A stretch of DNA of 53,190 nt from Phycisphaerae bacterium (GTDB lineage Bacteria > Planctomycetota > Phycisphaerae > Sedimentisphaerales > Anaerohalosphaeraceae): positions 1-53,190 of the forward strand of contig JACZKQ010000040.1 in the NCBI GenBank assembly GCA_014859965.1. The letters run 5' to 3'. Made by a program: the position numbers and the translations under genes. This document shows positions 10,069-52,147 of this stretch, piece by piece (position 1 is the stretch's first letter; the number at the start of each line of letters is the position of its first letter). The notes under the pieces are model-generated. The model was not told where the DNA came from, ran no database searches, and saw only the letters and a list, made by a program, of their open reading frames with translations.

Positions 10069-10086
10069 TGATCTGCAGCAAAAGAT

Positions 10087-10289
10087 CAGGGCAGGCGCAT
10101 TCTCCGGATGTCCGCATCCCAGACCCAGCCTGCGGCGACAATGGGGAGCAAAATCGGTTGGGCAGAGGCCAAAATCCGGAGCATCTGTTCGCCGGGGGGG
10201 GGGATTTTGGCCTCTGGGGCCCCGACCGGTTTTGCTCGGGCCTGGCGCGCTGCCTGCCCAGCGAGTTATGAGGAGAATGCGTTTGCCTG
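10087..10289. mobile_element. MITE-like palindromic element, copy A
   Basis: 203 bp with terminal inverted repeats: the left end CAGGGCAGGCGCATTCTCC and the reverse complement of the right end CAGGCAAACGCATTCTCC agree except for two bases and one gap. It is flanked by a 10-bp direct repeat AGCAAAAGAT (10077-10086 and 10290-10299), like a target-site duplication. Inside is a long hairpin (arms 10146-10177 and 10202-10237) whose loop ends in ten Gs. A second smaller hairpin lies at about 10108-10135. It has no coding capacity. A diverged second copy is at 51934-52126. The interval 10020-10363 otherwise contains only the aspS promoter. Confidence 0.75.
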
Positions 10290-10363
10290 AGCAAAAGATA
10301 AGCTTTGACCGTTTTGCCGGTTTTCCGGGCGCGCAAGACTCAGCGGCCGGTAAGCTTGCCTTT

Positions 10364-11218
10364 TCATTTCTGGAAGCGATAGCTCAGGAGCTTATAGACA
10401 AGCTTGGCCGCCAGGAAGTCCGGCCCTTTATTGTGCTCGTTGGGGCACAGTTCCACGACATCAAAGCCGACGACGTTGCGGTTTTGGACGACGGCCTTCA
10501 GCAAGGTCAGTGCCTTGTACCAGAAGAGCCCCCCCGGTTCAGGAGTGCCGGTGGACGGCATGATCGCCGGATCAAATACGTCCAGGTCGATTGTAATGTA
10601 GACGTTTTCACTGAGGCGGCCGATGGCGGAGGCAATCCAATCGGTGTTGTCCTGGATTTGCTCGGCAAAAAAAGTTGCATTCTCGTCTGTGACAGGCCTT
10701 TCCGAGGCATCCATGCTGCGGATACCCACTTGGACGATCGGCCCGAGTTGGCGGGCCCGGGCCATGACGCAGGCGTGATTGTATTGGGAACCCTCGTATT
10801 CGGGTCGCAAGTCGCTGTGTGCGTCCAGTTGCAGAAACGTGAGATTCCGGTGGCGTTCGGCGACCGCCTGAATGGCGCCGATGCTGACAGAATGCTCGCC
10901 GCCGATGACGACGGGAAATTTGCCCTTGTCAAGCCAGCCTCCAACGCGGGCTTTCACGGCCGCCGCCATTGCCTCGGGCGAGCGGTTTTCGGCCACGGGT
11001 TGGTCCGTGTGAATGCCGCGGCGACAGACTTCGCTGTCGGTCTCGATATCGTAGAGTTCCAGGCTCCACGAGGCCTCGATGAGTGCCTCAGGGCCCTTAT
11101 CGGCGCCTTTGATCCATGTGCTCGTGCCGTCATAAGGCACGGGTACGATGACGATCTCGGCGGCTTCAGCGTCGTGCGGCCCGTCGTGCAGGTTGCAATA
11201 ACCCCTTGCCTGTTCCAT
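10364..11218 (-). CDS. speB: Agmatinase
   Basis: 284 aa, arginase/agmatinase (ureohydrolase) family, cytoplasmic, hydrolysing agmatine to putrescine and urea with a binuclear Mn centre. Metal ligands are visible: GGEHS (H109), DAHSD (D132, H134, D136) and DLDVFD near 212. It lies 16 bp after pdaD, with AGGAG before the ATG, so the two form an operon making putrescine from arginine. Ureohydrolases can be mis-specified, but the upstream arginine decarboxylase argues for agmatine as substrate. Confidence 0.93.
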   Translation of the reverse strand: MEQARGYCNLHDGPHDAEAAEIVIVPVPYDGTSTWIKGADKGPEALIEASWSLELYDIETDSEVCRRGIHTDQPVAENRSPEAMAAAVKARVGGWLDKGKFPVVIGGEHSVSIGAIQAVAERHRNLTFLQLDAHSDLRPEYEGSQYNHACVMARARQLGPIVQVGIRSMDASERPVTDENATFFAEQIQDNTDWIASAIGRLSENVYITIDLDVFDPAIMPSTGTPEPGGLFWYKALTLLKAVVQNRNVVGFDVVELCPNEHNKGPDFLAAKLVYKLLSYRFQK

Positions 11219-51933: not shown

Positions 51934-52126
51934 CAAGGCTGTCGCATTCTCCGGACGTCCGCACCCAAACCAGCCCTGCGGCGGCTTTGGAGAGCAAAAC
52001 CGATTGGGCAGAGGCCAAAATTGGGAGCATCTTTTCGCCGGGGGGGGAATTTTGGCCTCTGGGGTCCCAAACGGTTTTGCTCGGCCCAAACGGCGCCGCA
52101 AGTTATCAGGAGAATGCGTTTGCCCT
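51934..52126. mobile_element. MITE-like palindromic element, copy B
   Basis: 193 bp, clearly related to the element at 10087-10289: same end words GCATTCTCC (51944-51952) and GGAGAATGC (52109-52117), same central hairpin (arms 51992-52022 and 52048-52082) and a loop ending in eight Gs. Several stem positions differ from copy A in ways that keep pairing. The flanks share GCCCCCC but no clean direct repeat, so a target duplication is not secure here. Confidence 0.75.
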
Positions 52127-52147
52127 CACGCCCCCCGACAGTATAAT
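52120..52147 (+). promoter_or_regulatory. Candidate promoter of rnhB overlapping element copy B
   Basis: TTGCCC (52120-52125), 16-nt spacer, TATAAT (52142-52147), 38 bp before the rnhB ATG. The -35 hexamer is the last bases of the element. Confidence 0.5.

Follow-up and report, generated by a model that had tools for sequence, protein, structure and literature searches.

A miniature transposable element with ISAs1-like ends and a conserved, covarying hairpin core in Phycisphaerae

The window, a 53,190-nt stretch of DNA from a Phycisphaerae bacterium (contig JACZKQ010000040.1), harbors at 10087 to 10289 a miniature inverted-repeat transposable element (MITE) whose internal hairpin is as conserved as its ends. 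The element is bordered by terminal inverted repeats (TIRs) and target-site duplications (TSDs), and its ends match those of an insertion sequence (IS) of the ISAs1 family. The hairpin covaries across the class, departs from Watson–Crick pairing asymmetrically between the strands, and is common to MITEs with different kinds of ends. Taken as a whole, the element is a MITE that is probably mobilized by an ISAs1 transposase and probably carries a transposase-independent, strand-selected hairpin that aids its own copy. MITEs, ISAs1, ISL3, and IS30 are already known; what is new is the unexplained structured core in such MITEs. The element and its parts are as follows:

10077..10086, no strand: left TSD AGCAAAAGAT, exact 10-bp repeat
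10087..10289, + strand: MITE copy 1, whole element in the hairpin-sense orientation, 203 bp, no coding capacity
10087..10105, + strand: left TIR CAGGGCAGGCGCATTCTCC, which matches the end of an ISAs1 element in a related genome (G008)
10146..10237, + strand: conserved hairpin core, defined by fold and by covariation across Phycisphaerae
10146..10162, + strand: 5′ outer arm GAGCAAAATCGGTTGGG, partner 10221-10237 (helix 1, 98.2% of alignment cells paired, two-sided changes in 7 pairs)
10163..10177, + strand: 5′ inner arm CAGAGGCCAAAATCC, partner 10202-10216, 100% complementary (helix 2, two-sided changes in 9 pairs)
10178..10201, + strand: apical loop with a G-run, ten Gs at 10194-10203, the last two within the inner arm
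10202..10216, + strand: 3′ inner arm, complement of 10163-10177
10217..10220, + strand: conserved 4-nt bulge GGG(C/T/A), GGGC in copy 1; other copies carry IS110 insertions at the 5′ side of the bulge
10221..10237, + strand: 3′ outer arm, complement of 10146-10162
10272..10289, − strand: right TIR GGAGAATGCGTTTGCCTG, inverted partner of the left end
10290..10299, no strand: right TSD AGCAAAAGAT, exact 10-bp repeat

The inverted ends, the exact 10-bp direct repeat, the stem of more than 30 nt, and the loop with ten Gs that the original prediction had described are all present. The TIRs of copy 1 form 16-nt arms that are 88% complementary, and the family consensus of the left TIR is CAGGGC(A/G)(A/G)(A/G)CGCATTCTCC. 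The bulged hairpin comprises 32 bp. RNA folding gives a z score of −6.3 for the + strand of copy 1, better than all shuffles, compared to −5.1 for the − strand and −4.6 for copy 2. The compensatory stem changes claimed for the copy at 51934-52126 are found as well. A conserved second side hairpin, which had also been proposed, finds no support, as the element diverges by about 9% outside the hairpin and TIRs and RNAalifold keeps few weak pairs there. A three-tier G-quadruplex built from four G-tracts was considered and not adopted; the second tract is merely GG in the copies of the own genome.

The element is not confined to its two copies in the window. In the own genome (G000, 5.28 Mb in 199 contigs; the comparison set holds one genome per species), nhmmer finds 100 stretches in the examined DNA that correspond to about 85 elements, 47 of them full length and most about 90% identical. 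The 19-nt end GGAGAATGCGTTTGCCCTG occurs 131 times (63 + 68) with up to three mismatches, and its reversed control not once. A 10-bp TSD with at most one mismatch flanks 12 of the 29 copies with clean ends (null 0), and other lengths stay near the null. Nearly all copies (83 of 85) are intergenic, and among the 85 there is no clear bias in orientation relative to the neighboring genes. These dispersed copies, their significant TSDs, and the ends shared with ISAs1 bear out the proposed mobile, non-autonomous element. The search for empty sites in the examined DNA of the own genome gave no clean one, and the matches spanning a site were tandem copies. Carriage by a phage or plasmid was rejected, as viral pattern matches were without the hairpin and no plasmid match was found. 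Many contigs of the assembly (C125, C139, C194, C148, C62, C166, and C167) break off within a MITE copy, in many cases at the G-run or where an IS110 is nested. Since so many breaks fall inside copies, the copy number of the own genome is underestimated. Tandem or abutting copies at G000:C10:60998-61415, C6:5719-6207, and C56:12580-12920 suggest side-by-side insertion or tandem duplication.

Within the own genome, the hairpin is as constrained as the ends that the transposase uses, since 64 copies diverge from the consensus by 3.1% in the hairpin stems and 3.0% in the TIR core, compared to 9.4% in the remainder of the element. The covariance model built from 38 own copies also has matches in relatives that belong to a different genus and a different family. 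A search of bacterial and archaeal genomes totaling 257 Gb for an exact core pattern (TTGGGCAGA, 28-58 nt, TCTGGGGCCCC) yields 49 loci, 46 of them in metagenome-assembled genomes of Planctomycetota; the three matches outside this phylum (L145, L162, and L173) have no stem and were rejected. With the hairpin model R2, 12 of 397 genomes of the class are positive. They belong to several families and usually hold many copies, the copy numbers being lower bounds as 10 candidates were scored per genome. The covariance model from own copies adds one further genome, G019, and the match in G068 is doubtful, as it forms a palindrome on either strand and scarcely differs from chance. In all, the hairpin is present in at least 11 other Phycisphaerae genomes from several families. 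Rfam gives no match in the window at the gathering threshold, and the own and related loci reach only chance level at relaxed E. Literature searches, with most subscription journals outside their coverage, returned no description of the element or of a core common to several IS families.

In support of the predicted selection on structure, the covariation still holds once relatives in other genera and families are added to the alignment. When 45 hairpins are aligned with MAFFT, 95.4% of the cells pair (86.3% when shuffled), and two-sided changes occur in 16 of the 32 pairs (shuffled 10.1 ± 1.4). The covariation score is 0.276, compared to 0.121 ± 0.007 after shuffling and 0.035-0.071 when the partners are slid by 1-3 columns. 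The constant parts are the bulge GGG(C/T/A), the stretch UGGGCAGA, at least one U.G pair, and the G-run loop. On the + strand, the departures from Watson–Crick pairing are mostly G.U and less often A.C (81 versus 10 in alignment A2, 141 versus 16 in A3), where these counts, like those of pairs, are alignment cells and not independent events. In the own copies, the non-Watson–Crick cells are 23 G.U versus 9 A.C in the stems and 6 versus 10 in the TIRs. The excess of G.U over A.C points to one strand that is folded as a single strand. Two hairpins from another family of the class (G047, L191 and L200) are very GC-rich and have retained both the GGG bulge and the loop with the G-run; the TIRs of L191, 23 nt long, are perfect, and its TSD measures 8 bp.

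The ends lead to the ISAs1 family, whose members generate TSDs of 8-10 bp. A search of the order for the end sequence gave seven forward matches in G008, which belongs to the same family and another genus. Two of these ends (L239 and L241) close an ISAs1-family IS, in which the reversed C-terminal part of a transposase comes after CAGGGCAAACGCATTCTCATGTTTT. The own end CAGGGCAAACGCATTCTC(A) is identical to this end at 18 of 19 positions, and the transposase fragments of G008 match NF033564 with E values of 5e-29, 2e-13, and 1e-5. The search for an IS with the same ends, which had been suggested, thus succeeds in G008 and not in the own genome, where an autonomous element was rejected as nearly all ends examined are those of MITE copies. 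Given the match to the G008 ends, the own elements are most likely ISAs1-type MITEs, with which they share the CAGGGC ends and the TSD length. They differ from ISAs1 elements in their hairpin, which is common to ISL3- and IS30-ended elements and is not seen in the ISAs1 fragments of G008. The ISAs1 partner may have been lost from the own genome or may be missing from its assembly of 199 contigs, in which repeats may be lost. G008 also holds a different, recurring repeat (L235-L238 and L240) that has an ISAs1-like end CAGGGCAAACGCATTCTCTGTGGGGAGAG, lacks such a hairpin, and is mostly located at contig ends.

The ends that enclose this core are of three types, namely ISAs1 in the own genome, ISL3 in most relatives, and IS30-like in two genomes. 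For the majority of copies that have both flanks, one of these end types could be named above the level of the shuffled control. The hairpin copies of G213 have the ends GGTTCATCCGGTTAATGCGTAGGTG, as does an ISL3-family IS of that genome (C159, about 632-1944; NF033550, E 3e-89), which agrees at 24 of 25 positions on one side. A second ISL3 element, in G019, has the end GGCTCTTCGGAATAATTTGTGGGT, which is the end type of the hairpin copies in G036 and G330. ISL3-type MITEs (G213, G330, G354, G011, G036, and G047) share the hairpin core, the length, and the TIR anatomy with the own element, and differ from it in their ends and in their TSD of 8 bp, which is found in 14 of 27 ISL3-ended copies (null 1.3%). 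The differing lengths of 8 bp for ISL3 and 10 bp for ISAs1 are expected for the two families. The copies in G321 and G274 have IS30-like ends, and the IS30 element of G321 (L283/L284) ends in GGATTTTTTTCTGAAGTGCAACAAA, compared to GGATTTTAATCTGAAGTGYAACA in the MITE. The IS30 association is weaker than those with ISAs1 and ISL3, because duplications of 2-3 bp are too short to judge. In the low-resolution hairpin tree, ISL3-ended copies are paraphyletic and the ISAs1- and IS30-ended copies form nested groups, which is consistent with two or more changes of ends by the core. The intact IS that were seen offer no space for the hairpin. An unusual apical loop, GGGGCCGTTTCGGCCAGAGGGTCGGGG, is shared by hairpins of G321 (L138/L254 versus L164 and L260) that sit between two different IS30-like end types, which suggests an exchange of ends on a short time scale. 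In the own element, the left inner end GGACATCCGGAGAATGCG, read outward (TIRs 10087-10105 and 10272-10289), resembles an ISL3-type TIR CATCCGGTTAATGCG at 13 of 15 positions in inverted orientation and is possibly a trace of a switch from ISL3 to ISAs1 ends.

The proposed mechanism combines a borrowed transposase with a portable core. An ISAs1-family transposase would act in trans on the CAGGGCAAACGCATTCTCC ends of the non-autonomous element of about 200 bp and thereby produce the 10-bp TSDs. The 95-nt hairpin core would be a module tied to no single transposase. It would be selected as a folded single strand with the fixed polarity of the window + strand, probably as RNA and possibly as single-stranded DNA, and would promote the spread or the tolerance of its own copy, an effect exerted via a host factor that Phycisphaerae have in common rather than via the transposase. 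Each copy keeps its own pairing, which argues for action in cis, as an RNA acting in trans could come from any copy. A bolder version, which can be held only tentatively, regards the hairpin as a selfish module in its own right, acting as a structured RNA or as a signal in single-stranded DNA, which would recruit a conserved host factor and make a successful MITE out of any pair of IS ends, the transposase family having switched several times (ISL3, ISAs1, and IS30) in Phycisphaerae. Several observations weigh against the proposed mechanism. The transposase profiles of ISAs1, DDE_Tnp_1, ISL3, and IS30 find nothing in the own genome, and the matching ISAs1 element of the other genus is broken or cut by contig ends. 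The ratio of G.U to A.C is just 23:9 in the own genome, and the counting by cells noted above applies to all such ratios. The IS30 association rests on ends that are similar at about 20 of 24 positions, the short TSDs (3 of 6 copies) carrying no weight, and a promoter search inside the element found none.

The hairpin is also a target of other mobile DNA. Long copies in the own genome carry 68 additional nt at the bulge, an insert that holds two small hairpins. The same insert is found outside any MITE at C48:6570-6637 (a mini-IS110 outside any MITE lies at CTCTG|GGGATGCC), and its ends are those of a full IS110-family element on C94, which encodes a 412-aa transposase (PF01548, E 1.7e-28; PF02371, E 6.5e-21). 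This IS110 (L296, G000:C94:65500-71500, element at about 66245-67742) is itself inserted in a MITE copy at TCTG|GGG. The long form is thus a nested mini-IS110 insertion and not the ancestral form, and its reading as ancestral extra arms was rejected. Mini-IS110 derivatives have entered the MITE hairpin precisely at TCTG|GGG in L064, L065, L074, L080, L082, L084, and L088 as well, as if the repeated hairpin were a programmed target of the IS110 bridge RNA. IS110 and mini-IS110, which in some copies enter the bulge, are parasites of the MITE and did not give rise to it.

The serious rival is a role of the hairpin as DNA, in which extrusion of the palindrome as a cruciform or lagging-strand hairpin draws the two ends of a very short element close to each other and eases synapsis for any transposase. 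Such a role, which is less probable than the proposed mechanism and yet well ahead of the remaining alternatives, fits the central position of the core in elements of mostly 187-203 bp with any end type and is independent of the transposase family. Being cis-acting, it would also account for the conservation in each copy. Extrusion requires no specific bulge, G-run, or fixed U.G pairs, however, yet these are the most conserved parts, and a double-stranded palindrome would not be expected to favor G.U above A.C, except where one of its strands serves as single-stranded DNA. It is improbable that no selection on structure exists and that the hairpin is a recently amplified palindromic passenger, paired by palindrome-templated repair or by descent. 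Correction within a palindrome can overwrite one arm with the sequence of its partner, and the identity of the own copies at mostly about 90% would fit a recent amplification. But the same bulge, U.G pairs, and loop occur in other families, two-sided changes are numerous, and wobbles that the copying of arms would erase are retained. In addition, the stems are as conserved as the TIRs, while the spacers drift three times faster.

Slightly less credit than the passenger is given to a regulatory RNA useful to the host (a terminator, attenuator, or RNase III site) that is spread by the MITE and kept where the neighboring genes benefit. The stable fold of the + strand and the intergenic location of nearly all copies would suit it, and stem-loop transcripts of MITEs are known in other bacteria (PMC10969869). 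The copies lack a clear orientation bias, though, neither a T-tract nor a terminator-like site was found at the element, and the distribution is patchy (12 of 397 genomes). Very improbable is the maintenance of the core as a landing site for RNA-guided IS110 elements that carry or protect it. Many 68-nt mini-IS110s and one or more full IS110s do lie exactly at TCTG|GGG, but among the loci examined such insertions are limited to the own genome, one mini-IS110 lies outside any MITE, and a role as target should not select for compensatory pairing.

Among known systems, REP/REPIN palindromes, which are moved by RAYT (IS200/IS605-like), have a conserved hairpin and a high copy number; unlike these, the elements described here have DDE-type TIRs, TSDs of 8-10 bp, and a bulged 32-bp hairpin. 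Correia/NEMIS, ERIC, and BOX elements are short, TIR-bounded, and intergenic, with a stem-loop in the transcript. To our knowledge, neither these nor the QMITEs carry a covarying internal hairpin common to several transposase families. The QMITEs of Coxiella are likewise short, TIR-bounded, intergenic, and transcribed with a stable stem-loop (PMC10969869). The own element resembles these structured bacterial MITEs in being short, TIR-bounded, and intergenic. MITEs are usually viewed as shrunken IS with unimportant interiors; here, the interior shows covariation and the same degree of conservation as the ends, and it outlives its transposase. If the proposed reading is true, a non-autonomous element can bring along a structured, portable module compatible with several unrelated transposases, which would offer a testable handle on high MITE copy numbers and on the host factor that reads the hairpin.

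The second copy in the window has the following parts:

51934..52127, + strand: MITE copy 2, imperfect 10-bp TSD CAGGCCCCCC/CACGCCCCCC
51934..51952, + strand: left TIR CAAGGCTGTCGCATTCTCC
51992..52082, + strand: hairpin core, arms 51992-52008/52066-52082 and 52009-52022/52048-52061, bulge GGGT at 52062-52065
52109..52127, − strand: right TIR GGAGAATGCGTTTGCCCTC

By eye, the two copies adjoin an agmatinase-like gene at about 10360-10500 (− strand) and the start of an RNase HII-like gene from 52187 (+ strand), respectively.
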